IMG/VR virus record: IMGVR_UViG_3300023176_004969
Span: 1 to 27,281 of that record
Origin: a virus
Length of the DNA: 27,281 nt
Strand: one strand, 5' to 3'
Each line of letters opens with the position of its first letter. Positions within the stretch are counted from its first letter, which is position 1. The notes beneath the pieces were generated by a model. That model had not been told where the DNA came from and searched no databases. It was given only the letters and a program-made list of their open reading frames with translations. Below, piece by piece: positions 3,546 through 27,281 of the stretch. The position numbers were made by a program, and so were the translations under genes.

Positions 3546-3574
3546 ACTATAGCAAGAAAATCTAACAAAATCAA
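3546..3574 (-). promoter_or_regulatory. Candidate sigma-70 promoter between gp55 and gp47
   Basis: On the minus strand a -35 TTGATT (3574-3569) is followed after exactly 17 bases by -10 TATAGT (3551-3546), preceded by TGC, an extended -10 motif. The -35 overlaps the gp55 stop codon. It would start a message just ahead of the gp47 ribosome-binding site. Confidence 0.6.
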
Positions 3575-4401
3575 CCAGATTTTTGTTCTTCTTGCCTTCT
3601 TAGTGCTGCTTCCCACTCACCTTGGTGTAGTCTTGTGTAACTTGGACTGTAATCATTCATTTCAAGTATGTCATCACGTATGTTTTGATTTCGCTTTTCT
3701 AAATTAATGACACGCACAAAGCTATTAGTAACAGCAGCGGTATAATAAGCAAAAGGATTGTTGGATTTAGATTCATCAAATTGTAGTCCTATCTGAGCTA
3801 GTTGGAGTATTGCTTGGCCTTTCATCTCGTCTTTGTATGTATAACCTCTAACGTTACCTCGTGTAGAGTATCTATCAACAAGTTTTAGCCACATCATGGC
3901 AAGTTTGTTAGTTGCTTTACCATGTTCTTTACTAAAATGTCCGTTTTCCATTCCGCCTATCCAATGTGACTTGCCTATGCACACTAAATTGTCGTTCTCG
4001 TCAAACTTGAAGTGTTGAAATGGTGGAAAATTTAGTTTTGTTTTGTGATCTGCAACAGTTTTAGGGTTTTTCTTACGTCCAGGTTCGTCTGGTATATGAT
4101 CAAACATCATAACACGAAACACCAAGTCTGTTTTTTCTATTGTTCTATAATCTACTTCAAATTCTGCAAGTTTTACCTTTTTTCCAGCTGCTTTAGCTGC
4201 TTCATATGCAGTTTGTCCTTGCTTTTTTGCCTTGTTACGCTTTGCTTCTGCTATTGTTCTAATGTTAATTTTTGCAATTTCTGGTAAAATGATATCATAG
4301 TCAGCGTATTCTGGCGACACATAGCTGCAAAATGTTGCTTTTGACTTGTGTATCTCAGCTAACATGTCTTTGTTGTTTAAATAATTTACTTTTCTAGCCA
4401 A
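3571..4401 (-). CDS. gp55: gp55, late-transcription sigma factor
   Basis: 276 residues against 185 in T4. It binds host RNA polymerase and directs it to late promoters. The start resembles T4 gp55 (NYLNNKDMLAEI at residues 6-17), and residues about 162-245 match the sigma region-2 core (GYTYKDEM at 187-194, FDESKSNNPFAYYT at 208-221, then the NSFVR.INLEKR helix). About 115 residues between these parts have no T4 counterpart and include a His/Trp/Gly-rich stretch (SHWIGGMENGHF, 145-156); I recall such a long form from marine T4-like phages. The hydrophobic clamp-binding tail of T4 gp55 is not evident. The start is TTG at 4401-4399: AGGAG (4412-4408) is six bases upstream and an in-frame TAA rules out an earlier start. 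Confidence 0.9.
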   Translation of the reverse strand: MARKVNYLNNKDMLAEIHKSKATFCSYVSPEYADYDIILPEIAKINIRTIAEAKRNKAKKQGQTAYEAAKAAGKKVKLAEFEVDYRTIEKTDLVFRVMMFDHIPDEPGRKKNPKTVADHKTKLNFPPFQHFKFDENDNLVCIGKSHWIGGMENGHFSKEHGKATNKLAMMWLKLVDRYSTRGNVRGYTYKDEMKGQAILQLAQIGLQFDESKSNNPFAYYTAAVTNSFVRVINLEKRNQNIRDDILEMNDYSPSYTRLHQGEWEAALRRQEEQKSG

Positions 4402-4473: not shown

Positions 4474-5310
4474 ATGGCTAATACCTTTCAAACCACACCT
4501 GCAAGTAATGGTAGTGAACTAACACAGTTCAATGCTAATAACCGTTACTCAAAGCAAAATTTAAGTGATCTCACAGGTTCAAATGCTAATCAACTTATGA
4601 GTAGGCACCGTGCAAGAAACATTCCTGCAGGTGCAGAGCCTTTGAAAAAAGATGCAAAAATAGCGTCTATGGCTCCTTTAAACTCAGATATTGGGGATGA
4701 TTGGCGTGTAAAAATAAGTGTTCCTGATCTTGCCACGTTTAGATCTAGTCCTTTATTAACTCCTTTAGCTGACACTGGTTTCAATGTTGTCTTTCCTATT
4801 GTTCCTACTATTGCTGTGCAGTATATGGCTCAATATGACAGTATCGCACCGGTTCATACTAACTATACTTATCCTCAATACGTGAATAGTAGTGTAAACG
4901 AGATTGCTATTACAGGAGAATTTCCTGTGCAAAGCGAAGAAGAAGGTAGATACTGGATAGCCGCAACACATTTCTTCCGTAGCGTTACAAAAATGTTTTA
5001 CGGAGACAGCAGTAACAAAGGTGCACCACCTCCGTTGTGTAAGTTAAACGGCTATGGCGACTTTGTTTTGAATAATGTTCCTGTTGTTGTAACAAGTTTT
5101 GTAAGTGATTTGCCTAACAATGTTGATTATATCCGTGTTCCTGTTGAAAATGCACAACAAGTTGGTTCGTATGCACCAAAATATCAAATGGTTCCACGTA
5201 ATAGCACAATTGCAATTACTGTTAGACCAACATACAGTAGAGGTAGAATTGCTGAATTTAGTCTTGACAAGTTTGTAAACGGAGATTTAACTGATAAAGG
5301 ATTTATCTAA
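4474..5310 (+). CDS. gp48: gp48-like baseplate tail-tube cap/initiator
   Basis: 278 residues (T4 gp48 has 364). In T4, gp48 sits on the baseplate hub and starts tail-tube polymerisation. The centre carries the conserved tube-like block: FPIVPTI (107-113), the HTNYTYPQYVNSSV stretch (128-141), ITGEFPVQ (146-153), then AATHFFRSVTKMFYG (163-177) and a PPPLCKLNGYG segment followed by NVPVVVTSF. The first 75 residues are polar and probably flexible. It is the first gene of the rightward late operon, with AGGAG seven bases before the ATG, and its stop overlaps the next ATG by one base. T4 gp54 is related, so confusion with gp54 is possible, but the pattern fits marine gp48 proteins best. Confidence 0.82.
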   Translation: MANTFQTTPASNGSELTQFNANNRYSKQNLSDLTGSNANQLMSRHRARNIPAGAEPLKKDAKIASMAPLNSDIGDDWRVKISVPDLATFRSSPLLTPLADTGFNVVFPIVPTIAVQYMAQYDSIAPVHTNYTYPQYVNSSVNEIAITGEFPVQSEEEGRYWIAATHFFRSVTKMFYGDSSNKGAPPPLCKLNGYGDFVLNNVPVVVTSFVSDLPNNVDYIRVPVENAQQVGSYAPKYQMVPRNSTIAITVRPTYSRGRIAEFSLDKFVNGDLTDKGFI

Positions 5311-5612
5311 TGGCTACATATACTAAAACAAGTCCATATTCTAATACAACAATAACAGAAAGTGGCGAACTTGATATATTAAAAATACGTCCGGTGCCTG
5401 CAGATGATGACGATTACCTATACGAAGTAGAAGCTCAATATAATTTTCGTCCAGATTTGTTAAGTTATGACTTATATGGCACTCCAAAGTTATGGTGGGT
5501 GTTTGCTCAGCGTAATTTAGACATATTAAAAGATCCTGTATTTGATTTTAAATCAGGTGTTAAAATATTTTTACCAAAGAAAAGCGCATTACAGAAGGCC
5601 TTAGGTATCTAA
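5310..5612 (+). CDS. gp53: gp53-like baseplate wedge protein (short form)
   Basis: 100 residues, half the length of T4 gp53 (196). Residues about 45-90 form the conserved LysM-like unit: NFRPDLLSYDLYGT (45-58), LWWVFAQRN (61-69), then a DP..DF..G segment ending in FLP (87-89). In T4, gp53 clamps the inner wedge of the baseplate. The N-terminal 44 residues are shorter than in T4, so this is close to a minimal version. It overlaps both neighbours by one base (TAATG at each junction), which points to coupled translation within the tail operon. Confidence 0.85.
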   Translation: MATYTKTSPYSNTTITESGELDILKIRPVPADDDDYLYEVEAQYNFRPDLLSYDLYGTPKLWWVFAQRNLDILKDPVFDFKSGVKIFLPKKSALQKALGI

Positions 5613-11023: not shown

Positions 11024-11467
11024 ATGGCTACTAACGACAAACCATTATATAAAAATATCACAGTAAGAGCGGCAAACGACGACGATACACCTGTGACAAG
11101 TAAAAAGTATAGAGGTATAAGCACAGTTAACCCAAATACAGGCAGCTTCAATCTCTACGATATTAGTTTGATAAAGCAAGATATTGTAAATCATTTTCAT
11201 ATACGCCAGGGAGAAAAACTCGAAAATCCTACATTTGGAACAATTATTTGGGACATTTTATTTGAACCTCTTACTGATGGGTTAAGAGACGCTATTATAC
11301 AAAATGTCACAGAAATAATAAATTATGATCCTCGTGTAAGCGTAGATAGTGTAACTGTAGATTCATATGAAAGTGGCATTCAAATTGATTGCTCGCTAAC
11401 TTACTTAACATACAGTATAAGTGAAACTATGCGATTGAAATTTGATCAAAGTGCCGGACTAATTTAA
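11024..11467 (+). CDS. gp25: gp25 baseplate wedge protein
   Basis: 147 residues (T4 gp25 has 132). It forms part of the inner wedge and links baseplate to sheath. The family pattern is clear: DISLIKQDI..H (46-59), GEKLENPTFGT (63-73), LFEP (79-82), and NYDPRV (100-105), the equivalent of the EPR core motif with Asp for Glu. The first 40 residues are a polar extension. TAAGG at 11009-11013 serves as the ribosome-binding site ten bases before the ATG. The stop codon is inside a perfect 16-base palindrome that precedes gp6. Confidence 0.93.
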   Translation: MATNDKPLYKNITVRAANDDDTPVTSKKYRGISTVNPNTGSFNLYDISLIKQDIVNHFHIRQGEKLENPTFGTIIWDILFEPLTDGLRDAIIQNVTEIINYDPRVSVDSVTVDSYESGIQIDCSLTYLTYSISETMRLKFDQSAGLI

Positions 11468-11518: not shown

Positions 11519-14500
11519 ATGTCAAGTACAGAACGTCAAAATAGACTTCTCTTAGCAGAAGATTGGAAAACGATATATCAGAGTTTTAAATACGCTGATT
11601 TTCAAAGTTATGATTTCGACAACCTACGTCGAACAATGATTAGTTATATACGTCAAAATTATCCTGAAGATTTTAACGACTATATTGAAAGCAGTGAATA
11701 TCTTGCACTGATTGACCTTATTGCTTTCCTTGGACAAAACCTTGCTTTCCGCACTGACCTAAACGCACGAGAAAACTTTATAGAAATTGCTGAACGTAGA
11801 GAAAGTATTCTCCGTTTAGCTCGTTTAATTAGTTATAATCCAAAAAGAAACCAAGCAGCAAATGGATTATTAAAAATTGAGAGTATTAGCTCAACCGAAG
11901 ATGTTGTAGATAGTAACGGAAATAACCTTGCAAACCAAAGTATTATTTGGAACGACGGGACTAATCCAAATTGGTATGAACAATTTATAAAAATATTAAA
12001 CGCAGCATTACCAGTTAATACTGCTTTTGGACGTCCTATCAAAAAAGCAACTATAAACGGTGTTGTTACAGAGCAATATAGATTTAATGGAATAAACACT
12101 GATATTCCTAGCTTTACATTTAGCAAGCAAATTAACAGTGTGAGCACTCAATTTGAAATTGTTAGCACCGGTATTGATACTGATACTAATTCTTTGGTAG
12201 AAGAAGATCCGTTACCTGGTAACAAAATGGCTTTTGTTTATAGAGATAACGGTCAAGGTGCTGGATCTAATAATAGCGGATTTTTTATGCATTTTAGGCA
12301 AGGTGTTTTAAAAAATAATACTTTTGCAATTACAAATAATGCACCAAACACTGTGGTAAACATTGACACAGATAACATAAATGATAGCGATGTATGGCTT
12401 TATAAATTAGATAAACAAAACAATGAAGAATCGTTGTGGACAAAAGTTGATGCTGTAGAAGGTAATAATGTAATTTATAACAGTGTCTCTAAAGGTATAC
12501 GTGACATATATGCAATTCAAACAAGAATAGAAGATAGAATTAGTCTAATATTTGCTGATGGTGTTTTTGGAAATATTCCAAAAGGTAGTTTTAAGGTATA
12601 TTACAGAACAAGTAAAAATTTAGATTTTAGAATTAATCCATCTGATCTAATTGGTATAAATGTTCAAATTCCATATGTAGATAGAAGCAACAAAGAACAA
12701 ACACTTAATTTAGTATTAGAACTAAAAAGTGTTGTTGAAAATAGTTCAACAAGCGAAACAAATGAAAGTATTAAAAGTGTTGCACCTAGCACATATTATA
12801 CACAAAACAGATTAATTACAGGTGAAGATTATAATATCGGAACATTAGGTATTAATCAACAAATAATTAAAACAAAAGCAATAAACCGCACCAGTAGTGG
12901 TATAAGCAGATATTATGATTTAAGAGATGCAACAGGAAAATACAGCAATACGTTGATGTATGGAAATGATGGTGTTTTATTTGCTGAAGAATTTAACGAA
13001 CTAGATAGTTTTGAATTTGCTACAAAAACTGATATTGAAGCAGCTATTAATAATTTAATAATTCCAAAAATTAAAACTGCAAACATTAAAAATTATTATT
13101 ACGAAAAATTTCCAAGAAATACAAGTATTGCAAATTTAAACATAACATGGAATCAAACAACAACAGGAACAAATATTTCTACAGGATATTTTACTGACCT
13201 ATATACCTTACCTGTTGTTGTTAGTTCATTTACACAAGGTTTGCCAAAATACATCGAACCTGAAGCATTGATTAAATTTGCTCCTCCAGCAGGTTTTTAC
13301 TTCGACAAAGATAATGCACTGAAAGAAGGCACCCCAAGTGTTGCTGGTGATAGAACTTATATTTGGAGCAAGGTGATAAGTGTTGACGAAGATGGCACAG
13401 TAATTGATGCCGATACTGGACTAGGTCCTATAGTGTTCAATGACGTAATTCCAAATGGTGTAACTGTTGCTGAAATTATTTCTCCTATTGTTGGAGCATT
13501 GACAGGTGATGTTACAGTGCAACTTGTTGATCAAGTTTTTGCATACAAAACATTTGGATTGAGATACGATGTTGATGCTAGACAATGGAAACTAGTTTTA
13601 AATACAAATTTAAATGCAAATAGCGATTTTAGTTTAGGTAAACAAGGTGATAATACTAATCAACAATTAGATGCAAGTTGGCTTTTGCTGTTCGAAACCA
13701 ATGGCGAAAAGTATACAATGACAACACGTTCGTATCGATATGTTTTTGAAAGTGACGATCAGATACGTTTTTATCATGATAGCACGGATAGGATATATGA
13801 TAGTAAAACAGGAAAAATTGTTAAAGATTCGATAACTGTGTTGAGTAACAACAATCAGCCTGACAGTTTAAATGCATTTACAGTAGATTGGCCTTGGCAA
13901 GTTGTTAAAGAATATAGAGATGCCGACGGCTATATTGATAACAAAAAACTTGAAGTTGGATTTTTTGATAGCGACGATGACGGAGTTGTTGATGACCCTG
14001 ATACTTTTAGAAATATAATTCAACCAACTGTATCTCCTACCACAAAATATATATTTGCTAAAAAATATACTAGAAATGGCACCGAAGTTTATGATTATAT
14101 TAATGCTGAATCTGAAAATATAGTTGTTCCAGCATTAGGAGATCCTAATGCTATTACATCATATGCTGATGGCACCATAATATATAATTGGAAAAAAGAT
14201 ATTTTTTATACAGTAAATCTAACATCTAATCAATTTGAGTTAAACACAAATTACAAAGTTTATACAGGTAGAGATAACATAAAATTTGGATATAGTCATG
14301 CTGCTAACGAAAATCGCAGAATAGACCCAAGTAGTTCAAATATTATGGATGTTTATATATTAACTAAGTCTTATGATACAAACTATAGGAAATCATTAAA
14401 TGGAGAAATTACCGATGTGGTATTACCTCCTAGTAGCGATAGTTTATTTCAAAGTTATGGAGCAGACATTGCTCAAATTAAAAGTATCAGCGACGAAGTA

Positions 14501-14977
14501 ATTTATCACCCAGTAAAATATAAACCGTTGTTTGGTAGTAAAGCGAGTAGTAATTTGCAAGCAGTATTTAAAATTGTAAAAAATCCTACAAAGGTAGTAA
14601 ATGATAACGATATTAAAGCAAGGGTAATTGAAGCAATAAATGAGTATTTCTCTTTAGAAAACTGGGATTTTGGAGAAACATTTTATTTCAGTGAATTAGC
14701 TGCATATATTGTAAAACAAACTGCGCCTGATCTTAGTAGTATAGTTCTAGTTCCAAGACAAGAATCGCAAAGTTTTGGTAGTATGTATGAAATCAAAAGT
14801 GAAAACGATGAAATATTCATTAGCTCGGCAACAGTCGAAGATGTAGAAATTATTGATGCTATAACAGCAAGTAGATTGAAAGCAGCCGGAAATGTAGTAA
14901 CCAGTGATGAGGTTCTCAACACAGGAGTTCAAAGTAGTGAATCAGCAAGCACAATTATTATTGGAGGCGATTATTAA
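11519..14977 (+). CDS. gp6: gp6 baseplate wedge protein, enlarged
   Basis: 1152 residues against 660 in T4. gp6 is the ring-forming wedge protein of the inner baseplate. The N-terminal about 115 residues are strongly gp6-like (YADFQSYDFDNLRRTM, YIESSEYLALIDLIAFLGQNLAFR, ENFIEIAERRESILRLA). A central APSTYYTQNRLITGEDYN block (from residue 422) is the conserved segment shared with J-type baseplate proteins. The end has WDFGETFYFSELAAYI and EIFISSATVEDVEIIDAI, also family marks. The extra length lies mainly between about 520 and 980 and is beta-rich, with Asp-rich loops DADGYIDN (801-808) and DSDDDGVVDDPD (817-828) that resemble calcium-binding loops. GAGGA precedes the ATG by nine bases. The stop overlaps the ATG of the giant gene by one base. 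Confidence 0.92.
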   Translation: MSSTERQNRLLLAEDWKTIYQSFKYADFQSYDFDNLRRTMISYIRQNYPEDFNDYIESSEYLALIDLIAFLGQNLAFRTDLNARENFIEIAERRESILRLARLISYNPKRNQAANGLLKIESISSTEDVVDSNGNNLANQSIIWNDGTNPNWYEQFIKILNAALPVNTAFGRPIKKATINGVVTEQYRFNGINTDIPSFTFSKQINSVSTQFEIVSTGIDTDTNSLVEEDPLPGNKMAFVYRDNGQGAGSNNSGFFMHFRQGVLKNNTFAITNNAPNTVVNIDTDNINDSDVWLYKLDKQNNEESLWTKVDAVEGNNVIYNSVSKGIRDIYAIQTRIEDRISLIFADGVFGNIPKGSFKVYYRTSKNLDFRINPSDLIGINVQIPYVDRSNKEQTLNLVLELKSVVENSSTSETNESIKSVAPSTYYTQNRLITGEDYNIGTLGINQQIIKTKAINRTSSGISRYYDLRDATGKYSNTLMYGNDGVLFAEEFNELDSFEFATKTDIEAAINNLIIPKIKTANIKNYYYEKFPRNTSIANLNITWNQTTTGTNISTGYFTDLYTLPVVVSSFTQGLPKYIEPEALIKFAPPAGFYFDKDNALKEGTPSVAGDRTYIWSKVISVDEDGTVIDADTGLGPIVFNDVIPNGVTVAEIISPIVGALTGDVTVQLVDQVFAYKTFGLRYDVDARQWKLVLNTNLNANSDFSLGKQGDNTNQQLDASWLLLFETNGEKYTMTTRSYRYVFESDDQIRFYHDSTDRIYDSKTGKIVKDSITVLSNNNQPDSLNAFTVDWPWQVVKEYRDADGYIDNKKLEVGFFDSDDDGVVDDPDTFRNIIQPTVSPTTKYIFAKKYTRNGTEVYDYINAESENIVVPALGDPNAITSYADGTIIYNWKKDIFYTVNLTSNQFELNTNYKVYTGRDNIKFGYSHAANENRRIDPSSSNIMDVYILTKSYDTNYRKSLNGEITDVVLPPSSDSLFQSYGADIAQIKSISDEVIYHPVKYKPLFGSKASSNLQAVFKIVKNPTKVVNDNDIKARVIEAINEYFSLENWDFGETFYFSELAAYIVKQTAPDLSSIVLVPRQESQSFGSMYEIKSENDEIFISSATVEDVEIIDAITASRLKAAGNVVTSDEVLNTGVQSSESASTIIIGGDY

Positions 14978-17900
14978 TGTCATATAACGACGAGCAAAAC
15001 GAATACCCTTTGCCAGTTGGCGATTCCAGTAATCAAAAAAGTGCTAATTTTTTACCAAGATATTTTAGAAGCGATGCTAACAAAAAATTCTTAGGCAGCA
15101 CTCTTGATCAAGTTACTTCTCCGGGAGTTGTAGAAAAAATTAATGCTTTTGCCGGACGTAGAGAAGCAAAGGCTGTGAAAGCTACTGACACCTACTTGCC
15201 AGAAATAAGTGCAAACAGAGAAAATTATCAGCTGGAACCTGCTGTTGTAATTAAAGACAATATTGGTAATGTTGACTTTTATAAAGATTATAATGATTAT
15301 ATTGGACAACTAACTGCTTTTAGATCTACAACAAAAGATCACAGTAAATTAAACAGTCAAGAATTTTATTCTTGGGATCCCCATGTTGATTGGGATAAAT
15401 TTACAAACTTCCGTGAATATTATTGGTTACCAAATGGACCACAAGAAGTTCCTGTAGTAGGACAAAGTTTAGAAGTCCGTAGCACATATACAATATCAAC
15501 TGTCACTGATGACGATAACACTGCTTTCCTTTTAACACCAAATGGATTAACAAGAAATCCAACAATAAAATTATTTAGAGGTCAAACATATAGATTTGAA
15601 GTGGATTGCCCAGGACATCCTATTAGTATTGCAATCAGTCGTGCTTTCCAGCCTGCTGTTGATGTTATTGACAGTAGTCTTATTACTACATTATACGAGG
15701 ATGGTATTGAAATTATCCCAGAAGATACAGGAGAGCTGAAAGACAGAGAATATGCTATTCGAGAAGGCTTTATTGAAAAAGGCATTCTTGAATTTACTGT
15801 TCCGATGAACGCCCCTGAAACATTATACTATATAAGTCAAAATGATATCAATACTAGTGGAGTATTTAATATCTACGATATAGAAGCAAACACAGAAATT
15901 GATGTCGCAGCAGAAATACTTGGTAAAAAAACTTATACAACAAGTAACGGTTGGAATTTCACAAATGGTATGAAAGTGTATTTCCAAGGCAATGTTACTC
16001 CAGCAGAATATGCTGAAGGATTATTTTATGTTGAAGGTGTAGGCGAAGGCATAAAACTTATTCCATTGACAGACTTAGCTGTTCCTGCTATATTCACACA
16101 AGATACACTTATACCATTTGATACAAACGGCTTTGACAGAGTTCCTTTTGGCGATGCAAAAAGTTTTGCAGGAACAAAAGATTATATCTGTATTAACAGA
16201 GCAGATGAAAGCAGGAATGGGTGGGCAAGATATAACCGTTGGTTCCACAAAGATGTAATAGAATTAGCTGCACAAATTAACAATCAAGATGCAGGCCTAG
16301 ACGAGTCGTTTAGAGCAAAACGTCCTATTATAGAATTTGAAGCAAACATACGTTTGTATAATCATGGATCAACAGCAAAGAAGAATGTTGATCTTGTTGA
16401 TACCTATACTAAAGATGTTTTTAGTAATATAGAAGGACAAGCAGGATACAATATCGATGGCATAGATATTGTAGAGGGTATGCGTATTTTGTTTACAGCA
16501 GATCCTGATACTTTAGTAAACGGCAAAATTTATGAAGTTAAATTTATTACACATACTAATACAACTCAAATTAGTTTAATTGAAACTGAAGACACTGATC
16601 CTTTATTAGACCAAACAGTTTTAGTTAAAGATGGTAACAAAAATGCTGGTAAGATGTTTTGGTATAACGGAACAGAATGGCAATCTGCGCAAGATAAAAC
16701 AGCCTTAAACCAAGCACCAAAATTTGATTTATTTGATAGCAATGGATATAGCGTAGGTGACACAGATTATTATCCAGCAAACAGTTTTAATGGTAACAGG
16801 ATTTTTGCATATAGAGTTGGCACCGGTGCAAATGACACAGAATTAGGATTTCCATTATCTTACAAAAATATTAACAATGTAGGTGATATAGTATTTGATT
16901 TTCCTTTGCTTACTCAAAGCTACGAGTATGAAACAAATAATACTATTTTTACAACTGCAAGTGAAGAATTATTTTTAAAGAAAATTAAAAACGGTTCCAC
17001 ATACTATTGCAACGGTTGGACAAAAGCAAATGAATTAAGCAGTCAATATGTGATTAGAAAATACACTGGCGATGATATAACAAATCGCTTTCCTATTGAT
17101 GTATATAAAAATAGTGCAAATCTAACAGACTTGGTTTGTAAGGTATTTGTTAACAACAAATTTTTAATACAAGGCATTGATTGGAATTTTGTAGATGACT
17201 TGTCTGTAAGAAAAATTAATCTAGTTGAAGAATTATCTACAGATGATGTTATTATTATTAAAACAAAAAGCAGTGCAGAAAAAACAGATGTTGGATATTA
17301 TGAAATACCCTACAATTTAGAACGCAACCCACTAAACAATAATATTACAGAATTTACACTTGGTCAAGTAAATGATCATGTTGAAGGCATGATTGCTGAA
17401 ATACCAGAATTTTCTGGTATGCAACCAGGACGTAGTAATCTTAGAGATTTGGGTATAGTATCAAAATATGGACGCAAGTTCTTACAACACAGCGGACCTA
17501 TAAACTTACCTCTTTATCATTTAACAGATAAAAATGCAAATATAGTAAAAGCTATTAGGTTAGCAAAAACAGAATACAGCAAATTCAAAAGGGAATTTTT
17601 AAAAGCAGCAACCAATAGTTCTTTTGTAGGACCTATAAAAGATCATGTTGATTTAATTATGCAAGAATTGACAAAAAACAAGTCAAAAAATATGCCATTT
17701 TACAGCACTGATATGTTAGGATTTGGTGGTGCTAAACTACTTGAATATAAAGTTTTAGATAGCAGAAATACATATTATGCTTTATCAAAAATATTCAATG
17801 TAAAACAATTAAGTAGAAAAGCTGTGTATGTTTACATTAACGATACACAATTAGTTTATGGACTTGATTATACTTTTACCGATAACGGATTTGTAGATAT

Positions 17901-20900
17901 TACAGCGACAATGCAAAATGACGATGTAATTAAAATTTATGAGTATGAAAATACTGAAGGTAGTTTTGTTCCTCCGACTCCAACAAAAATAGGAATTTAT
18001 CCTTCGTATGTTCCGTCATTGCAAGTAGATAATACATATTCTTCAAATACCAATATAATAATAGGTCACGATGGTAGTAAATCTGTTGCCTATAATGATT
18101 ATAGAGATGATCTACTTTTAGAATTAGAAAAAAGAATTTATAATAATTTAAAAATTGATTATGATAAGTCTATTTTAAATATACATGATTACATAGAAGG
18201 CAATTATCGCAATAGTAATATTACAAAAAAATCATTAGACAAAATATTAATAAGTGACTTTATTTCTTGGTTACCATTGGTAGGAAATCCTGATTATACT
18301 GAAAATGATTTTGTAACACGAGGTGATGGTTTTACTTACAATTACAGCAGGAGTGTAAGTCCTACTGGTGAACAACTACCAGGGTATTGGCGTGCAGTAT
18401 ACAAAATGGCATACGAAACTGACACACCTCATACAACTCCATGGGAAATGCTAGGATTTAGTGTTAAGCCTACATGGTGGGAAACCAAATACGGTCCAGC
18501 ACCTTATACAAAAGATAATTTGATAATGTGGAAAGACATTGAAAATGGTTATATTAAAGAACCAGGCAAACCACTTATTGTTGCAAAAAAATATGTGCGT
18601 CCAGGCTTGACAAGTCATTTGCCCGTAAACGAATATGGACAATTATTAGATCCACTAGCCAGCGGGTATGCTAAAGATTTTAGCTACACAACTATGTCTA
18701 ATGTTTTATTTAAATTTGGAGATGAAGCACCTATTGAAACAGCATGGAGACGTAGTAGTGATTATGCTTTTAGTTTATTACTAGCTATGATTGTAAATAG
18801 ACCTGCACAAGTTTTTGCAATTGCATTTGATAGATCTAGAACTAGTAGGAATCTTGCTGGTAATTATGTTTACAATAACAAAAAAGCAATTCGTTCAGTT
18901 GATCTAGTTTTTCCTAAAACTAAAACAAATAATTTAGTTAATCAAACATTGGGTTTAGTAAATTATATAGAAAATTATTTACAAAGCAATATCAATGCAA
19001 ATTATGAAAAATATATTGATAATTTACAAAATTTAAACTCACAAATGGGAATTAAATTAGCAGGATTTGCAGATAAAGACAAATTAAAACTAGTATTAGA
19101 CAGTAGGACACCTTTAAATCAAGGTAATGTTTTTATTCCTCAGGAAAATTATCAAATTTTCCTAAACACAAGTAGTGCGCAAAATCTCATTTCTTATAGT
19201 GGAATAGTAATTGAAAAAGTAGATAGAGGATTTAAAGTTTCTGGATATGATAAAGAAGATCCATTCTTTACAATCTATAAACCTTTTGAAAGCGCAAACG
19301 ATATTGCAATCAACGTTGGCGGCATCAGTGATAGTTTTATAACCTGGGATGAAGGCAAACAACTTGTCGCAGGAAAAATTGTAAAATACAATAATAGATT
19401 CTACAGGATAAATGAAACACACACAACCGGAACAAATTTTGACAACACTTTGTATACACAATTAAACGAGTTGCCTATTACAGGTGGTGCTACTGCTTTA
19501 ATTAGAAAAAGATATCAGTCTGTTCCTTCTGTTGTTGATTATGGCACTGTATATACAAAGATACAAGAAGTCGTTGATTTTATTTTAGGTTATGAAAAAT
19601 ATTTAAAAGAACAAGGATTTGTTTTTGATTATAATAATAGAGAAACTGAAAGTATTGAAGATTTTAGGTTAGCTATAAAAGAATATTTGTTTTGGACAAC
19701 ACAAAATTGGGCAGAAGCAAGTGTAATCGTATTAAGTCCCGCAGCTAACCAACTTAAATTTTCTAAAGATTATTTTGTTGTAGATAATATCTTTGACAAT
19801 TTTTATGGTCTGGATGTTTTACAAGCCGATACTTCAAAACTGAGAAGTAGCTTTACTAACATAATTAGAGACAATACAAACCAATTTGGTATTACTCCAA
19901 AATCAACAGCTCAAGGCATATTCTTTGTTAAACTTCCGCTTGTTCAAAAAGAGCATGTTGTGCTAATTGATAATACCACGGTATTCAATGATACAATATA
20001 TGATCCTGAGCCAGGCTATAGACAAGAGCGTATAAAGATTGTAGGATATAGAACCGACGGGTGGAACGGTAGTCTAAATATTCCAGGCTTCACATATGAT
20101 GAAGCACTTGTCACAGAATGGGAATCTTGGAAAGATTATTACATTGGCGAACTAGTAAAATATAAACAATTTTATTATACTGCTACTGTAACACATACAG
20201 GCACAGAAGAATTTGATTTTAACAACTGGAATGTGTTGCCAAAACGTCCTGAAAGTTCTTTGATGCCTAACTGGGATTATAGAGCAAATCAGTTCACTGA
20301 TTTTTATGATTTAGATACTGATAATTTTGACAGCGAACAGCAACGTTTAGCACAGCATTTGATAGGCTATCAAAAACGTCAATATTTAGAAAACATAATC
20401 AATGATGATGTTGCACAATACAAATTCTATCAAGGAATGTTACAAGACAAAGGCACAAAAAATGCACTAACAAAACTATTTGACAAGTTAGGCAGTGCAG
20501 ACAAAGACAGTCTTGAATTTTATGAAGAATGGGCAATACGTTTAGGACAGTATGGTGCGACAGATAGTTTTGACGAAGTTGAATATCAACTAGACGAAAA
20601 ACAATTTAGGATTGAACCTCAAACTGTTGAACTTGTAAACACTGTTGATATTAGCCGAACAGACCTTGTTTACCAATATCCTAAAAATAAAGTTTACTTG
20701 CAAAACCAAGATTATGATCATGCACCATTTCCAACTAATTCTAGTTTAGAAGAATATACAAAGACTGGCGGATATGTAGCATTAGATCAAGTTAATTTTA
20801 TTGCACGTAGTTTAAAAGATGTTCTAAGTTTTGATATTAATTCAGTTAACCTAGACACATATATTTGGGTGCCTGAAGTTCAACAGAGTTGGAATGTTTA

Positions 20901-23900
20901 CAAGCATATTCAATCACCTGCACGTATAAACAAAATTATAAAAACAGATTTAGGATTCACAGCAATATTTGATAGAGCTGTGCCATTTACAACTGGTGAA
21001 ATAATCGGTATTAACAATATAAACGAGGATGTAAATGGATTTTGGACAGCTAGAGATGTATCATTAAATGTTGTAGAATTTTATTCTAACAAAGACATCG
21101 GCGATGATGAAATTGATTTAAGCGATAGCACTCTTGGAATAGTAAGTCAGCTGAACAGTCGCAGAATAGCAAATATCACCGATGTGAACGCTTTACTAAT
21201 AGACTACGATATCAATGACAATGATAATTTATGGATAGACAATAACGGAGCCGAAAAAAGCGAAGTTATTTCAAATACAAAAATATTTAATCTACAAGCA
21301 GAAATACCAAACGAAGAAGGCCTTAACGATGTAGGATATGGCACAGCTTTTGCTGCAAGCGGCAGCAATCAAGTATTAGCAGTTGGTATGCCTGATGTTG
21401 GCTTGAATGGTAAAGTAGCCGTTTATTCAAGATTAAGTGAAGCATTAGAATACACATTATTACAAACACTAGAACCAGAAGCAATTTCATCAGTAGGTAT
21501 TGTAGGAATTGTGAATAGCAATCCAGGTGAAATTACTACTTCAGGTCCGCATGGTTTAAGAGAAAGTGAAAGAATACAAATCAGAAACGCAGAAGGACTT
21601 ACTGCTTTAAACGACAATTACTATTATGTTTCTATTTTGACTTCTACATCATTTAGTATCTATAATGATAAAGATCTTACTTCTCCTGTTGATACTTCAG
21701 CAATGGGTTCACACACAACTAATTCTGGTTTAATTTCTACAGGTGTTTTATATGACACCGGTTCTGGGTTTGGAACATCAGTTGATGTAACTCAAAATGG
21801 ACAATACATTTTAGTTGGTGCGCCGTTAGCAAGTGATGTTCGCAGTAAGTATGTTGGAGAATTTGACGGCACAGCAAGTTATTTACAATATGATATTGTA
21901 AGCGATAGAGGAACACTATGGAGAGCTGTTAGAGACACACCGGCTGGTATTGCGGATAGCACAATAGGAACATTATCTCAAGATTGGGAATTGGTTGATG
22001 TTCTTGAAGCAGATCCCACAGGAAATCTAAGCGGTTATAGCAATCAAGGTGTTATCCATGTTTACAAAAAAGATGTAACAACATATAAATTAGAAACCAC
22101 AATCTTATCTCCTGTAGCTAGAGATAATGAACAATTTGGTATTGCTATTAAATCGGCATTTACTAACGATTTAGTTCATAGGTTCTACATAAGAAGTTTA
22201 GCAGATAACGGCAGAATCTATTTTATAGAAAATAGTTTAGCAAATGTTAATTTTTTCAACTATACTAGAGATCAAAATTACAAAGGCACTTTTGATCCTT
22301 TGAAAAATTATTATCAAAATGAGATAGTATTTGCTGATTATATTTTGTATAGAGCTACAACTAATATTTTTGCAAGTAGTGGTGTTTTACCTGGCAGCTC
22401 ATCAGATTGGGAAGCATTAGATCAATATGTTGATTATGTAGGGTTTGTGCCTAACTTTGGAGATGTTACAGCAGTTGAAAGTGACAGTGTTGGTTTAGGA
22501 ACTGCTGTTGAAATTGGTAAAAGTTTTGACGTTAGTAAAGATGGCAGTGTATTAGCTATATCAGGTTATTTGGATCTTACAGAAATTAATCGTATAAGTG
22601 TATACAGATATAATGATAATCAAGGCCGTTACATATATGAATCCAATATTGATGGCGATATAAAATTAGAAGAAGATTTTGGACAAGCTCTTGCTGTTTC
22701 TGATGATGGAAAAGATATAGCAGTTGGTGCTATAGGTAGTGATGTTACTGGATTAAACAACGGAAAAGTTTATATTTTTAGATATAACTTTGATAGTGAT
22801 AATCCTGAATATAGTTTTCAACAAGAATTATTTTCACCAAAAGGTGATGCAAATGAAGCGTTTGGATATAGTATCGATTTTGCAAATAATAAATTAGGTA
22901 TTATGAGTATAAACGGAGATAATATTTCTCAAGTTACATTTGATAGCAACACAACACAATTTGATAATAGTGCTACAACAATTACAGACACTGTAAGAGA
23001 TAATGGACAAGTATACATTTTTGAAAATTATAATGATACTTGGATATATGCAGAAAAAATGCGCTATTTTAGAGACACAACAAAAGCAGTTGAACCAACA
23101 TTAAAACTAATTGATAATCATATTATTGTTGGACAGCCTGGTTCGTTGTTTACAAACGATGCAGGTGTTGGAACAAATACTGGTTTTGTTGTAGATTTTA
23201 GATCTGACAAAAATACAAACTCATGGACATCAAACAGTTTAGTTCAAGATTTTGTTGATTTAACAAAAATTAAAAATGTTTTCTTATACGATAAAACCAA
23301 TGGAGATCTTGTAACATATTTAGATTATATCGACCCTGTGCAGGGAAAAATTGCAGGACCTGCAGAACAAGAATTGTCATATAAACTATATTATGATCCT
23401 GCTGTTTATAATATAGGCAGCACAAATACAGGAAACAAAACACCTTGGGACAGTAGTTATATAGGAAAACTGTGGTGGGATTTAAGCACTATTAAGTGGT
23501 TTAATACAAGACAACGTGGATTAGAATATAAAACTAATAACTGGAATACACCATTACCTAGTTTTGAAGTAGATGTCTATGAATGGGTTGAAAGTGATTT
23601 ACTTCCAACAGAATGGGATGATATTGCAGACACTGTAGAAGGTTTAGCCGATGGCATTAGCGGAACATCTAAGTATGGTGACGATAGTTATGTAATAGCA
23701 AACATTTATGATCCTGTTACAGGAACGTTTGCAAACAAATATTATTATTGGGTAAAAAATAAAAAAACATTGCCTTCAATTGAATCAAGATCAATTAGTG
23801 CATTTGATGTTACACTTCTTATACAAGATCCTGCAGGGCAAGGATACAGATTTGTTGCGTTCTATGAAAACAACAAATTTGGACTTTATAACGTAAGAAA

Positions 23901-26900
23901 TCTAGTCAAGGATGAAAATATAGTTCTGCATATTGAATGGAAAAAGTTTGAAACTGAAAACAACATTCATAGTGAATATCAGCTTCTAACTGAAGGTGTG
24001 CCTTCAAGTAAACCAAATGCAGATATTGTGCAAAAATGGATAGACAGTTTAGTTGGTTATGATAAAAACAGTAACCAAATACCTGATATAGATATAAGCA
24101 TACCACGTAGATATGGTGTTTTAAACACACCTAATCAAAGTATGTTTATTAATAAAACTGAAGCCTTAAAACAAATAGTTGAAAGGGTCAACGGTGTATT
24201 AGCGGAAAATTTAATTGTTGATGATTTTGACATCAGTGGATTACAAAAAGTTGATCCTTTGCCTAGCATATACAGTAATGATTATGATGTAAAAATTGCA
24301 AGTGAAAATCTTTTAAGATTTGTTGCAGTTGCTAAAATTGAAACTGCTACTTTGTCGCCTACAGTTATTGACGGTAGAATAAAAAGTGTTACAATTACTA
24401 ATCCTGGTAGAGGATATATTGACACTAGTTATGTTTCTGGTAGTGTAAGAAAAGGTCCAACAGTTGACATTAGAGGCACAGGAACTGGTGCAAAAATACA
24501 ATTGTATATTAATAATATAGGACAAGTAACTAGTGCAGTAGTTTTGAATGAAGGTAAAAATTATGGTGCCGATACAATTTGTATTGTAAGACGTTTTACT
24601 GTCCTAGTAGAAAACGATAGCACTATAGGCGGATTTTGGAGTTTATACAATTATACACCTGCACAACGAGAATGGAGTGTTGAAAGAATACAATCATATG
24701 ACACAACTCTGTATTGGCAATATGTAGATTATTATGTAGATGGATATGATGAAACAACAGCTATAAATCATTTAGTCCCAGGCAGCTATGCTCTTGAAGC
24801 AACAAATGACCTTATTGGTGAAATTGTTAAAATCGAAAATATAGGTTCAGGCGGTTGGCTTCTACTAGAAAAAATAGATAATCAGCCAGAAGTAGATTAT
24901 ACTGTAAATTATAAAGTAATTGGTAGACAAAACGGAACAATAGAATTCAGTAAATTGTTATATCAAAATGTATCAAGCGGTTTTGATAATCAAGTATTTG
25001 ATTCTTATTTGTATGATAGAGAACCAGTTAATGAAGTTCGTATAATTATGGAATCATTACAAAATCAAATATTTGTTGATCAATTAGAAGTTGAATGGAA
25101 TAAATTATTCTTTGCAAGTGTAAGATATGCATTATCAGAACAGGTTAATATTGATTGGATATTCAAAACCAGCTTTGTTAAAGCACAACACAACGTTGGC
25201 GAATTAGAACAGAAAATAACATTTAAAAATGATAATTTATCAAATTATCAAGATTATGTAAACGAAGTTAAACCTTACAAAACCAAAATTAGAGAATATG
25301 TTAGCAGTTACCAAAAAACTGAACCTTCTCAAACAAGCGTCACAGATTTTGACCTACAGCCACGTTATGATGCAGTTGAAGGACGTATTGTTGCTGAAAG
25401 AACAAGTGTATTTAATAGCGAAGTTCAGACATATAGTCCTTTTGTTCAAACTTATCCTCAGAAACATTGGTTAGATAATGTTGGTTTTGAAATCAAAGAA
25501 ATTAAAATTTACGACGGTGGTAGTGGATGGACAGACGGTCCTAACGTTACAATCAGCGGCGGCGGAGGTCCTACACTAAAAGGGACAGCATCTCTTGCAG
25601 GAACCAAGGTAAATTCAATAGAAATTAATACAAGTAATGCTAGATACATTACAGCTCCTACAATTACATTTGATGGAAGTCAAGACGAAGACTCTACACC
25701 AGCAAAAGCAATTGTTATACTTGGAAATGGTAAAGCAAAAGCCACACATATGTTAATGAAGTTTGACCGTGTAAGTGGTAGCTTAGTATTCACAAGTCTT
25801 CAAGTTCCTACAGAAACATTTACAGGAACTGGTGCACAAGAAGAATTTACACTTACTTGGCCTATTGACACAAGAAAATCAAAAGTTGTTGTAACAGTAA
25901 ATGGAGTTGAAGCATTAAGTAGTGAATACACCCCAGGAAACAAAGAAGATACAAGTGTAGGTTATACTAGAAACCTGGGCACTATTACCTTTACTGAACC
26001 ACCTGCTTTGGGTGCAGAAATTTTGGTTGATTATTATAGAAACGCAAGTATGCTTACTGCTGCTGATAGGATTAGTTATTTTTATAAACCTACAACTGGT
26101 ATGCCTGGTTTAGGCACTAATGAAGACGGCAGTGTTGATTTAGCACAAGTAATGGACGGAATTGATTATGGTGGAGTTCAGATAGACACAATCAGTTTTG
26201 GCAATACTCTTGGATTTGATGCCGATGGTTTTGGAGCCAATAGTTTTGACACATATGATACTACATTTGATGATGAAATATTTGTCTTAGATGGAAGCAC
26301 TGATATTTTAGATTTAGCTCTTCCTCTCGAAGCCAATGTTGAATACAATGTATACTTTAAAAGTGTATTAGCACCTACTAGTGAAAATCCTATTAGATTA
26401 GACAGTTCATCATGGCCTACTCCAGATCCAAAGGTTCCATATGCAGTTATATCTCCTATTACAGGTGACGGTATAACCACAAGTATTGTTGTAAACGATA
26501 TTTTAGAAAAATTCAATGAACTCGACGATGTTCCGTATGTTGCAAACACAACAGGCGATACTGTAATATTCAGAAAAGCATCTAGTGATGGAACTACAAC
26601 ACCAGACTTTACAAACTTTGACATAGAATTAAAAGGCGGCGATTTTGCGCTTTCTACAGCTACCGGTGTGCAAGCAGGTGATATAACTGTTGACGGTGAT
26701 GGGTTTGTTACGCCAACAACGAGCAAAGGTCCAGAAGAGCAAGTTCCAGGACAGTTAGTCGATGCACTTGATATACAAGTCTTCAACAGAGTTCAAGACG
26801 GCCAAGGTATAATTACAGTTCATAACTACCTAACCGATGATGGTAGATTAGAATATCCATTAAGTGGAGTTGCTGCATCTCAAACAAATGTTATTGCTAA

Positions 26901-27281
26901 ATTAGACGATGTTATTATTGATCAATCTGAATATACTATTGATTGGAAAACAAACACATTTATTTTTGCAGATAGCACAGCAATAGAACCAAATAAAAAT
27001 CTCAATATTATTCTTATTGATAACAATGGATTAGATTTAATTGATAGTGACAGAATAGTAACAACAGAAAAAACCACAAGACTTGATACAAATATAAAAT
27101 ACAGCACAGAATATAGTTTATTTGTAACAAGGAACGGAAATGTTGAATTAGCTGCACCAAAAGATAATAATGGAACATTAGAAATTGAACTTACAACACA
27201 AAGTGCTATAGGTGACATTTTTGATTATACTGTGTATAATAACACAACTCCTGATTTTAGTCAAATTGTAATTGACGAATC
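14977..27281 (+). CDS. Giant modular tail/baseplate structural protein (3' end outside window)
   Basis: I followed the frame to the window end: more than 4100 codons without a stop, so the gene is incomplete here. GGAGG (14963-14967) lies nine bases before the ATG. The first 150 residues (FLPRYFRSDANKKFLGSTLDQ, FYSWDPHVDWDKFTNFREYYWLP) resemble giant virion proteins of marine T4-like phages. Then: cupredoxin-like domain (about 189-300); small beta units ending in NG-type turns (700-768, 942-990, 3620-3689, 3965-4022); a helical region with WEMLGFSVKPTWWE (about 1155-1168); CBM5/12-like modules (1456-1500, 1715-1755, 2299-2341, 2442-2483); an FG-GAP-like propeller (2120-2748); and GxGY glycine-rich units (3130-3206, 3503-3588). 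No signal peptide or enzyme motif was seen. It occupies the place of T4 gene 7 after gp6. Probable role: peripheral baseplate/fibre protein, perhaps contacting host surface glycans (inference). Confidence 0.85.
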   Translation, partial: MSYNDEQNEYPLPVGDSSNQKSANFLPRYFRSDANKKFLGSTLDQVTSPGVVEKINAFAGRREAKAVKATDTYLPEISANRENYQLEPAVVIKDNIGNVDFYKDYNDYIGQLTAFRSTTKDHSKLNSQEFYSWDPHVDWDKFTNFREYYWLPNGPQEVPVVGQSLEVRSTYTISTVTDDDNTAFLLTPNGLTRNPTIKLFRGQTYRFEVDCPGHPISIAISRAFQPAVDVIDSSLITTLYEDGIEIIPEDTGELKDREYAIREGFIEKGILEFTVPMNAPETLYYISQNDINTSGVFNIYDIEANTEIDVAAEILGKKTYTTSNGWNFTNGMKVYFQGNVTPAEYAEGLFYVEGVGEGIKLIPLTDLAVPAIFTQDTLIPFDTNGFDRVPFGDAKSFAGTKDYICINRADESRNGWARYNRWFHKDVIELAAQINNQDAGLDESFRAKRPIIEFEANIRLYNHGSTAKKNVDLVDTYTKDVFSNIEGQAGYNIDGIDIVEGMRILFTADPDTLVNGKIYEVKFITHTNTTQISLIETEDTDPLLDQTVLVKDGNKNAGKMFWYNGTEWQSAQDKTALNQAPKFDLFDSNGYSVGDTDYYPANSFNGNRIFAYRVGTGANDTELGFPLSYKNINNVGDIVFDFPLLTQSYEYETNNTIFTTASEELFLKKIKNGSTYYCNGWTKANELSSQYVIRKYTGDDITNRFPIDVYKNSANLTDLVCKVFVNNKFLIQGIDWNFVDDLSVRKINLVEELSTDDVIIIKTKSSAEKTDVGYYEIPYNLERNPLNNNITEFTLGQVNDHVEGMIAEIPEFSGMQPGRSNLRDLGIVSKYGRKFLQHSGPINLPLYHLTDKNANIVKAIRLAKTEYSKFKREFLKAATNSSFVGPIKDHVDLIMQELTKNKSKNMPFYSTDMLGFGGAKLLEYKVLDSRNTYYALSKIFNVKQLSRKAVYVYINDTQLVYGLDYTFTDNGFVDITATMQNDDVIKIYEYENTEGSFVPPTPTKIGIYPSYVPSLQVDNTYSSNTNIIIGHDGSKSVAYNDYRDDLLLELEKRIYNNLKIDYDKSILNIHDYIEGNYRNSNITKKSLDKILISDFISWLPLVGNPDYTENDFVTRGDGFTYNYSRSVSPTGEQLPGYWRAVYKMAYETDTPHTTPWEMLGFSVKPTWWETKYGPAPYTKDNLIMWKDIENGYIKEPGKPLIVAKKYVRPGLTSHLPVNEYGQLLDPLASGYAKDFSYTTMSNVLFKFGDEAPIETAWRRSSDYAFSLLLAMIVNRPAQVFAIAFDRSRTSRNLAGNYVYNNKKAIRSVDLVFPKTKTNNLVNQTLGLVNYIENYLQSNINANYEKYIDNLQNLNSQMGIKLAGFADKDKLKLVLDSRTPLNQGNVFIPQENYQIFLNTSSAQNLISYSGIVIEKVDRGFKVSGYDKEDPFFTIYKPFESANDIAINVGGISDSFITWDEGKQLVAGKIVKYNNRFYRINETHTTGTNFDNTLYTQLNELPITGGATALIRKRYQSVPSVVDYGTVYTKIQEVVDFILGYEKYLKEQGFVFDYNNRETESIEDFRLAIKEYLFWTTQNWAEASVIVLSPAANQLKFSKDYFVVDNIFDNFYGLDVLQADTSKLRSSFTNIIRDNTNQFGITPKSTAQGIFFVKLPLVQKEHVVLIDNTTVFNDTIYDPEPGYRQERIKIVGYRTDGWNGSLNIPGFTYDEALVTEWESWKDYYIGELVKYKQFYYTATVTHTGTEEFDFNNWNVLPKRPESSLMPNWDYRANQFTDFYDLDTDNFDSEQQRLAQHLIGYQKRQYLENIINDDVAQYKFYQGMLQDKGTKNALTKLFDKLGSADKDSLEFYEEWAIRLGQYGATDSFDEVEYQLDEKQFRIEPQTVELVNTVDISRTDLVYQYPKNKVYLQNQDYDHAPFPTNSSLEEYTKTGGYVALDQVNFIARSLKDVLSFDINSVNLDTYIWVPEVQQSWNVYKHIQSPARINKIIKTDLGFTAIFDRAVPFTTGEIIGINNINEDVNGFWTARDVSLNVVEFYSNKDIGDDEIDLSDSTLGIVSQLNSRRIANITDVNALLIDYDINDNDNLWIDNNGAEKSEVISNTKIFNLQAEIPNEEGLNDVGYGTAFAASGSNQVLAVGMPDVGLNGKVAVYSRLSEALEYTLLQTLEPEAISSVGIVGIVNSNPGEITTSGPHGLRESERIQIRNAEGLTALNDNYYYVSILTSTSFSIYNDKDLTSPVDTSAMGSHTTNSGLISTGVLYDTGSGFGTSVDVTQNGQYILVGAPLASDVRSKYVGEFDGTASYLQYDIVSDRGTLWRAVRDTPAGIADSTIGTLSQDWELVDVLEADPTGNLSGYSNQGVIHVYKKDVTTYKLETTILSPVARDNEQFGIAIKSAFTNDLVHRFYIRSLADNGRIYFIENSLANVNFFNYTRDQNYKGTFDPLKNYYQNEIVFADYILYRATTNIFASSGVLPGSSSDWEALDQYVDYVGFVPNFGDVTAVESDSVGLGTAVEIGKSFDVSKDGSVLAISGYLDLTEINRISVYRYNDNQGRYIYESNIDGDIKLEEDFGQALAVSDDGKDIAVGAIGSDVTGLNNGKVYIFRYNFDSDNPEYSFQQELFSPKGDANEAFGYSIDFANNKLGIMSINGDNISQVTFDSNTTQFDNSATTITDTVRDNGQVYIFENYNDTWIYAEKMRYFRDTTKAVEPTLKLIDNHIIVGQPGSLFTNDAGVGTNTGFVVDFRSDKNTNSWTSNSLVQDFVDLTKIKNVFLYDKTNGDLVTYLDYIDPVQGKIAGPAEQELSYKLYYDPAVYNIGSTNTGNKTPWDSSYIGKLWWDLSTIKWFNTRQRGLEYKTNNWNTPLPSFEVDVYEWVESDLLPTEWDDIADTVEGLADGISGTSKYGDDSYVIANIYDPVTGTFANKYYYWVKNKKTLPSIESRSISAFDVTLLIQDPAGQGYRFVAFYENNKFGLYNVRNLVKDENIVLHIEWKKFETENNIHSEYQLLTEGVPSSKPNADIVQKWIDSLVGYDKNSNQIPDIDISIPRRYGVLNTPNQSMFINKTEALKQIVERVNGVLAENLIVDDFDISGLQKVDPLPSIYSNDYDVKIASENLLRFVAVAKIETATLSPTVIDGRIKSVTITNPGRGYIDTSYVSGSVRKGPTVDIRGTGTGAKIQLYINNIGQVTSAVVLNEGKNYGADTICIVRRFTVLVENDSTIGGFWSLYNYTPAQREWSVERIQSYDTTLYWQYVDYYVDGYDETTAINHLVPGSYALEATNDLIGEIVKIENIGSGGWLLLEKIDNQPEVDYTVNYKVIGRQNGTIEFSKLLYQNVSSGFDNQVFDSYLYDREPVNEVRIIMESLQNQIFVDQLEVEWNKLFFASVRYALSEQVNIDWIFKTSFVKAQHNVGELEQKITFKNDNLSNYQDYVNEVKPYKTKIREYVSSYQKTEPSQTSVTDFDLQPRYDAVEGRIVAERTSVFNSEVQTYSPFVQTYPQKHWLDNVGFEIKEIKIYDGGSGWTDGPNVTISGGGGPTLKGTASLAGTKVNSIEINTSNARYITAPTITFDGSQDEDSTPAKAIVILGNGKAKATHMLMKFDRVSGSLVFTSLQVPTETFTGTGAQEEFTLTWPIDTRKSKVVVTVNGVEALSSEYTPGNKEDTSVGYTRNLGTITFTEPPALGAEILVDYYRNASMLTAADRISYFYKPTTGMPGLGTNEDGSVDLAQVMDGIDYGGVQIDTISFGNTLGFDADGFGANSFDTYDTTFDDEIFVLDGSTDILDLALPLEANVEYNVYFKSVLAPTSENPIRLDSSSWPTPDPKVPYAVISPITGDGITTSIVVNDILEKFNELDDVPYVANTTGDTVIFRKASSDGTTTPDFTNFDIELKGGDFALSTATGVQAGDITVDGDGFVTPTTSKGPEEQVPGQLVDALDIQVFNRVQDGQGIITVHNYLTDDGRLEYPLSGVAASQTNVIAKLDDVIIDQSEYTIDWKTNTFIFADSTAIEPNKNLNIILIDNNGLDLIDSDRIVTTEKTTRLDTNIKYSTEYSLFVTRNGNVELAAPKDNNGTLEIELTTQSAIGDIFDYTVYNNTTPDFSQIVIDE
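15541..15876 (+). other. Cupredoxin-like domain lacking copper ligands (giant protein 189-300)
   Basis: The pattern RNPTIKLFRGQTYRFEVD, then GHP (213-215), then FTVPMNAPETLYYISQ (273-288) matches the plastocyanin-like beta-sandwich frequent in marine phage virion proteins. The ligand site usually written YYxCxxHxxMxG reads YYISQNDINTSG here, so Cys, second His and Met are all replaced; only His214 remains. Likely a structural fold, not a copper site. Confidence 0.55.
19342..19476 (+). repeat. CBM5/12-like module A (giant protein 1456-1500)
   Basis: Pattern W....(L)VAG.IVKYNNRFYRI...H, about 45 residues, ending in a Leu-Pro. It resembles the short three-strand carbohydrate-binding module in which a Trp, a G.xV strand and a Y.A/R strand are spaced regularly. 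The final Trp is missing, so this is the weakest of four copies. Confidence 0.35.
20119..20241 (+). repeat. CBM5/12-like module B (giant protein 1715-1755)
   Basis: WESWKDYYIGELVKYKQFYYTATVTH, then NNWNVLP. This is the cleanest copy of the W..Y..G.xV.Y...YY.A......W..LP pattern. Confidence 0.5.
21496..21726 (+). other. FCCH-like beta module inserted in the propeller (2174-2250)
   Basis: The order GIVNSNPGEITTSGPHGL, a (S/D)ERIQIRNAEGLTALND turn, YYYVSILTSTSFSIY and a PVDTSAMG ending matches a small beta domain common in phage tail proteins that database searches tend to relate to the E1 FCCH domain. It sits between the first two propeller blades. Confidence 0.45.
21871..21999 (+). repeat. 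CBM5/12-like module C (giant protein 2299-2341)
   Basis: Y..YDIVSDRGTLWRAVRDT, then QDWELVDV. It lies inside the propeller region, between two blade strands, so it would protrude from a loop. Confidence 0.45.
22300..22425 (+). repeat. CBM5/12-like module D (giant protein 2442-2483)
   Basis: L.NYYQNEIVFADYILYRATTN, then SSDWEALDQ. This second module inside the propeller region shares the Y..(D/E)IV.....LYRA......W spacing with module C. Confidence 0.45.

Follow-up and report, generated by a model that had tools for sequence, protein, structure and literature searches.

The window analysed here, a stretch of 27,281 nucleotides that is the whole of record IMGVR_UViG_3300023176_004969 with nothing beyond, closes on a giant open reading frame that encodes one real, very large and conserved structural protein. 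We consider it probable (roughly 75%) that this is the baseplate-wedge protein at the gp7 position of a RaK2-related jumbo myovirus, a member of the family PHROG_10938 enlarged with beta-rich modules. Its observed basis consists of one conserved gene, its position, its family, folds of binding type, and relatives that carry no separate T4-type gp7. The features of the frame, in coordinates of the record, are as follows.

14977..27281, + strand: giant ORF; ATG start, 4,101 codons (to 27279), running stop-free off the contig end
14975-14979, + strand: TAATG, one-base overlap of the gp6 stop and the giant's start
14963..14967, + strand: GGAGG ribosome-binding site, within the 3' end of gp6

The preliminary description had reported a frame of more than 4,100 codons, open at the edge and starting one base inside the gp6 stop, and both statements are borne out. 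At the base composition of the sequence, a stop-free run of 4,101 codons has a chance probability of ~10^-138. The stop is supplied by a near-identical contig (L021, 9 differences in 13,281 positions), one of 46 loci collected by searching with the final 1,093 residues that the window encodes. Extended in this way, as had been proposed, the frame terminates at L021:15194-15196, which projects to ~29196 in window coordinates, and the complete protein has 4,739 amino acids (~533 kDa, pI 4.6). Among the fetched loci, 44 are complete at both ends (37 distinct sequences, all from uncultured viruses) and measure 4,458–4,896 codons from stop to stop. Comparison with three relatives, 82–84% identical to the C-terminal query, gives a dS of ~1.4, a dN of 0.12–0.14 and a dN/dS of 0.08–0.09 over the frame; dN/dS stays below 0.14 in each segment, the propeller included. 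Because of the L021 stop, the similar length of the 37 distinct complete sequences and the dN/dS of ~0.09, misassembly and a chance frame are excluded. The chance that an assembly artefact has fused several genes is vanishingly small, as homologues also exist in cultured phages and the frame holds no internal stops. The claim of a single polypeptide therefore stands, neither an in-frame stop nor a misassembly having been found. The further claim, that the gene takes up a large share of the coding capacity, fails because its 14.2 kb correspond to only ~4% of the genome in relatives of ~330 kb (two related contigs, L046 and L153, are of this size).

The genes upstream of the giant include several baseplate components.

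5310..5612, + strand: gp53-like baseplate wedge subunit (PHROG_7145, E 2e-24; the gp53 name is taken from gene order with Vibrio phage 2.275.O)
7954..9438, + strand: baseplate hub / tail lysozyme, gp5-like (PHROG_13211, E 2e-42)
11024..11467, + strand: gp25-like baseplate wedge subunit
11519..14977, + strand: gp6 baseplate wedge subunit, 1,152 aa (PHROG_10646, E 2e-291; PHROG_219, the T4 gp6 family, E 6e-23)

The gene order of the window (gp53, structural, gp5, a 522-aa ORF, gp25, gp6, giant) agrees in the main with that of 121Q, RaK2, GAP32 and PA5oct. In the window's group gp6 has ~1,150 residues, nearly double the 660 of T4 gp6, and the best match of the window's gp6 to the T4 family is N-terminal. 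The 522-aa ORF (9443-11011), between the hub/lysozyme and gp25, returned a weak peptidase match alone from PHROG (E 0.005) and is a putative baseplate component. The T4-type late promoter core TATAAATA does not occur in the whole window, against 4.4 occurrences expected from dinucleotide shuffles; despite this absence, gene order predicts a gp55-like late sigma gene at 3571-4401. The phage is most likely a marine or brackish, RaK2-related jumbo myovirus.

The giant matches PHROG_10938 ('virion structural protein') with a full-protein score of 1098 bits, in five stretches covering profile positions 18–2489 of 3324. A tblastn search with the giant returned 84 phage records, all of them, among the matches listed, jumbo phages or fragments of jumbo phages, and a scan of IMG/VR with the most conserved block identified at least 594 relatives. 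Members of the family (121Q gp582, RaK2 ORF070, PA5oct gp355, Atu_ph07 gp180) are homologous over residues 1–165, ~400–1990 and 2750–3500, and share with the window the place after gp6 and a single gene per genome. In every annotated record inspected the homologue lies directly 3' of gp6 or its positional equivalent (the gene preceding it in SCTP-2 is annotated as hypothetical). RaK2-like homologues have 3323 (121Q), 3326 (RaK2), 3332 (XaC1) and 3341 (GAP32) residues, the window's giant being ~1,400 residues longer; others reach 3771 (Vibrio 2.275.O), 3807 (SCTP-2), 3857 (PA5oct), 4449 (Atu_ph07) and 4555 (Phosso). In a tree of the core the uncultured clade stands apart from the cultured phages; the tree contains some long branches and is weakly supported at its deepest nodes. 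A 'YHYH domain-containing protein' of an uncultured Caudovirales phage (A0A6J5L0K2, BFVD model) is 46% identical over the N-terminal ~990 residues and shares their predicted fold; it is a database entry only, with no described function.

Several further loci were noted. Stenotrophomonas phage RAS14 (L146:20959-30375) carries behind gp6 an unannotated member of 3,138 residues with a low-complexity Ser-Thr-Pro tail. L153 (PBPT01000016.1, 335,231 bp) and L155, both assigned to a single Candidatus Neomarinimicrobiota MAG, carry jumbo-phage giants, with a frame still open after 4,959 codons, and are probably mis-binned phage genomes. Since the genome-contig relatives are scattered over MAGs of unrelated phyla and were taken as mis-binned, no host was assigned.

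Virion presence is recorded for homologues in three phages other than that of the window. In phAPEC6, gp245 (381.88 kDa) yielded 17 unique peptides in virion mass spectrometry and adjoins gp244, a baseplate wedge protein (PMC7247149). In CBB, CBB_236 yielded 21 peptides in virion mass spectrometry and adjoins the gp6 CBB_237, its homologue status being assigned by position (PMC5259590). For PA5oct gp355, ESI-MS/MS is stated in the note of the sequence record. By analogy the giant may also be a virion protein; virion presence of homologues does not by itself place it in the baseplate.

An alignment of 28 sequences divides the protein into family-wide blocks (residues 1–150, 400–900, 1000–1940 and 2750–3500) and variable parts (residues 150–400, 1950–2750 and the C-terminal part).

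14977..15471, + strand: conserved N-terminal part, residues 1-165, LPRYFR...FL motif, in all relatives
17971..18846, + strand: most conserved core, residues 999-1290, WR..Y...TD.PH..PWEMLGF..KP.WW
20308..20580, + strand: helical segment of low pLDDT, residues ~1778-1868, FYQGxxQDKGT motif; may correspond to the gp7 core helices
23224..25476, + strand: second family-wide conserved block, residues 2750-3500
24289..24591, + strand: G-x-GY repeat module, residues ~3105-3205, shared with cyanophage gp7
25477..27279, + strand: divergent beta-rich C-terminal part, residues 3501-4101 of 4739

Two AlphaFold2 monomer models, of residues 1–998 (pLDDT 81) and 999–1993 (pLDDT 79), make up the folded part and show mainly beta structure. 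Among the PDB matches listed, the core at residues 999–1290 has no solved relative by sequence or by fold. A module of the cyanophage gp8 family that resembles the G-x-GY repeat module lies within giants of relatives. The C-terminal end of the L021 giant reads ...ARFIRDKTISLPR, and this tail is kept within the clade. Its conserved form, RF[IL]R..TI.LP[RK] (L021:15150-15193 and relatives), follows a poorly conserved stretch. The tail is possibly a docking peptide.

The recognisable modules are of the following kinds.

15472..15876, + strand: cupredoxin-like beta-sandwich, residues ~166-300 (AlphaFold2 model; Foldseek rusticyanin probability 1.00, E 2e-4)
19345..19464, + strand: CBM5/12-type module 1, residues 1457-1496 (Pfam PF02839; chitin-binding-domain fold matches of the model of residues 999-1993)
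20119..20238, + strand: CBM5/12-type module 2, residues 1715-1754 (four-stretch HMM)
21850..21996, + strand: CBM5/12-type module 3, residues 2292-2340, inserted in the propeller (four-stretch HMM)
22279..22419, + strand: CBM5/12-type module 4, residues 2435-2481, inserted in the propeller (four-stretch HMM)
21328..23202, + strand: FG-GAP beta-propeller of about seven blades by eye, residues 2118-2742 (PF14312; blade HMM)

The limits of the cupredoxin-like domain were set from its strands and from alignment occupancy. This domain is largely missing from RaK2-like homologues. A copper-ligand loop (Cys/His/Met) is not apparent in its sequence, and metal binding is not claimed. The first CBM module scores 28 bits against Pfam PF02839 (CBM_5_12, residues 1456–1486; cut-off 26.2), and chitin-binding domains prevail among the confident short Foldseek matches of the model of residues 999–1993. 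These matches (1ed7 and others) reach a probability of 1.00, with an rmsd of 1.8 for 1ed7, and E-values of only 0.1–0.3 because the domain is so short. Modules 2 to 4 are identified solely by an HMM derived from all four CBM-like stretches, whose matches begin at residues 1456, 1713, 2292 and 2435, and by the matches of this HMM in relatives. The blade HMM repeats from residue 2118 to 2695, and adding the divergent third and last blades by eye gives the count of about seven. Both HMMs were built from the giant itself, and the evidence therefore lies in their matches in other members. Of 19 members, 16 have two CBM modules between propeller blades. Members of the uncultured clade show a recognisable propeller and none of the nine GenBank homologues does; the RaK2-like members likewise have no recognisable cupredoxin-like insert, propeller or further CBM modules. 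A Pfam match to E1_FCCH fell below its cut-off. The literature was searched for FG-GAP propellers in baseplates, with no relevant result. Pfam and PHROG identified no enzyme domain in the giant, and the earlier view of its modules as adhesive rather than enzymatic holds, the recognisable ones being binding folds. The CBM modules may bind chitin or another glycan.

The place of the giant directly after gp6 is that of gene 7 in T4, as the preliminary description had proposed. T4 gp7 (PHROG_964, 1,032 aa), a wedge protein present as a monomer in six copies per tail (PMC3004832), thus has the same position and the role expected here. The giant is 4.6 times longer, however, and the T4 order gp8–gp12 is not kept downstream of it. 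The position stands, but homology to T4 gp7 in sequence or fold was not found: hhalign against T4-type gp7 gave a probability below 1%, a PDB sequence search identified no direct homology, and gp7 was not among the 50 Foldseek PDB matches listed for the models of residues 1–1993. The profile searches and monomer predictions that had been suggested thus yielded PHROG_10938 and the binding folds, but no gp7. The tail structure of phiKp24 was left out of the comparison because it is described as a separate family. PHROG_964 finds a match only in T4 and none in six jumbo records (a 330-kb relative and five cultured phages), all six of which contain PHROG_10938, a family absent from T4 and cyanophage S-SRM01. 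The absence of a second gp7 refers to these six records, the window's own genome being incomplete.

In cyanophages (Kyanoviridae) the gp7 slot is also occupied by giants: P-HM2 (4,454 aa, annotated gp7 and followed by gp8), Sf-CH5 (4,878 aa), ACG-2014f (4,225 aa) and S-SRM01 (3,895 aa). This gp7 (PHROG_2885, 'baseplate wedge initiator') has the slot, the size class and the G-x-GY repeat module in common with the giant. PHROG_2885 is not among the giant's PHROG matches, and no significant full-length similarity was found; only the repeat modules and a KGT motif align. T4 and cyanophage gp7 have a common segment around FYSTKGxxxSYKFLFK (hhalign E 2.6e-6). In profile comparison only ~90 residues of two cyanophage gp7 proteins of 3.9–4.5 thousand residues (L145:16048-27735 and L150:13914-27278) align with T4 gp7. 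The jumbo giant has FYQGxxQDKGTxxxLTKLF at ~1817–1836, its KGT helix lying near residue 1,820 and that of cyanophage gp7 near residue 200. The best hhalign match to cyanophage gp7 falls exactly at the KGT motif and is weak (probability 2%, E 0.03). With a larger profile this match outscores all of 150 controls with shuffled columns, the motif having been picked after inspection. With an HMM of the T4 and cyanophage motif, hmmsearch scored the giant below shuffled proteins. The motif HMM thus failed against shuffles and the profile–profile comparison beat shuffled columns, so that a core shared with gp7, as the KGT helical motif would indicate, is left as suggestive.

These observations bear on whether the giant descends from gp7. 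A non-homologous giant may instead have replaced gp7, and perhaps gp8 or gp10, in the jumbo phages; this differs from the wedge-scaffold reading in ancestry only, with the same slot and role, and we regard it as a serious contender at somewhat less than even odds. It is favoured by the lack of any connection to T4 gp7 in profiles or folds, by the failure to find the T4 gp10 family in the records of 121Q, RaK2, Atu_ph07, Phosso and the 330-kb relative, and by a full-length gp8 family match in the cyanophage only, the jumbo giants having just the repeat module. Against it, residue 1819 of the giant marks a counterpart of the KGT helical motif that T4 and cyanophage gp7 have in common; this segment is helical and of low confidence in the AlphaFold2 monomer model, as expected for a helix bundle that needs partners. 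The giant most likely works like gp7, and its actual identity as gp7 is not established.

As a wedge scaffold, the giant would be translated in coupling with gp6 and, as one large monomer per wedge, would assemble with gp6, gp25 and gp53 in all six. The conserved blocks (residues 1–165, 400–1990 and 2750–3500) would bind gp6, gp25 and gp53 and form the wedge. The beta modules specific to the clade (the cupredoxin-like domain, the CBM5/12 modules, the FG-GAP propeller and the beta-rich C-terminal part) would project outward, where they may dock fibres or touch surface glycans or peptidoglycan. Such contact would be relayed to the baseplate switch, the wedge changing shape and the sheath contracting. 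Copy number, wedge placement, ligand binding and signalling are all inferred by analogy with T4.

The same modules could belong to a peripheral adhesin or fibre dock on the baseplate that is no part of the wedge scaffold, and they are also the most variable parts between clades. We think this unlikely, given that the family-wide conserved blocks total ~2,300 residues, that the genomes tested have no other gp7, and that the giant's start codon overlaps the gp6 stop. A tape-measure protein, as the great length of this tail-region gene might suggest, is rejected as highly improbable on grounds of fold and size: both models are mainly beta structure, ~820 helix residues would suffice (estimated at 0.15 nm per residue) for a tail of ~123 nm as in CBB (PMC5259590), and the predicted tape measure of Atu_ph07 is a different gene, gp701 (PMC6102473).

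Under the preferred reading as a wedge protein, the giant adds one more member to a family already described, in an established slot, with kin known from cultured jumbo phages. Nor is its size new, proteins of 4.2–4.9 thousand residues occupying the gp7 slot of Atu_ph07, Phosso and the cyanophages. Of interest are the combination of propeller and CBM modules in the marine clade and the fact that proteins in this slot are giants in cyanophages as well, in parallel. Only tentatively do we propose that in two lineages separately, the cyanophages and the RaK2-related jumbo phages, the gp7 slot came to hold a giant scaffold that accepts modules, and that the wedge of the marine clade has a built-in FG-GAP propeller with chitin-binding modules.

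The analysis links the gp7 position of the baseplate to a widespread family of very large structural proteins of phages that has no functional name. One of the largest virion proteins of jumbo phages thus goes by 'hypothetical' in their annotation. The alignment and domain map supply a basis for testing the wedge role and glycan binding. If the proposal is true, the baseplate scaffold itself, and not only the fibres, would read the host surface.
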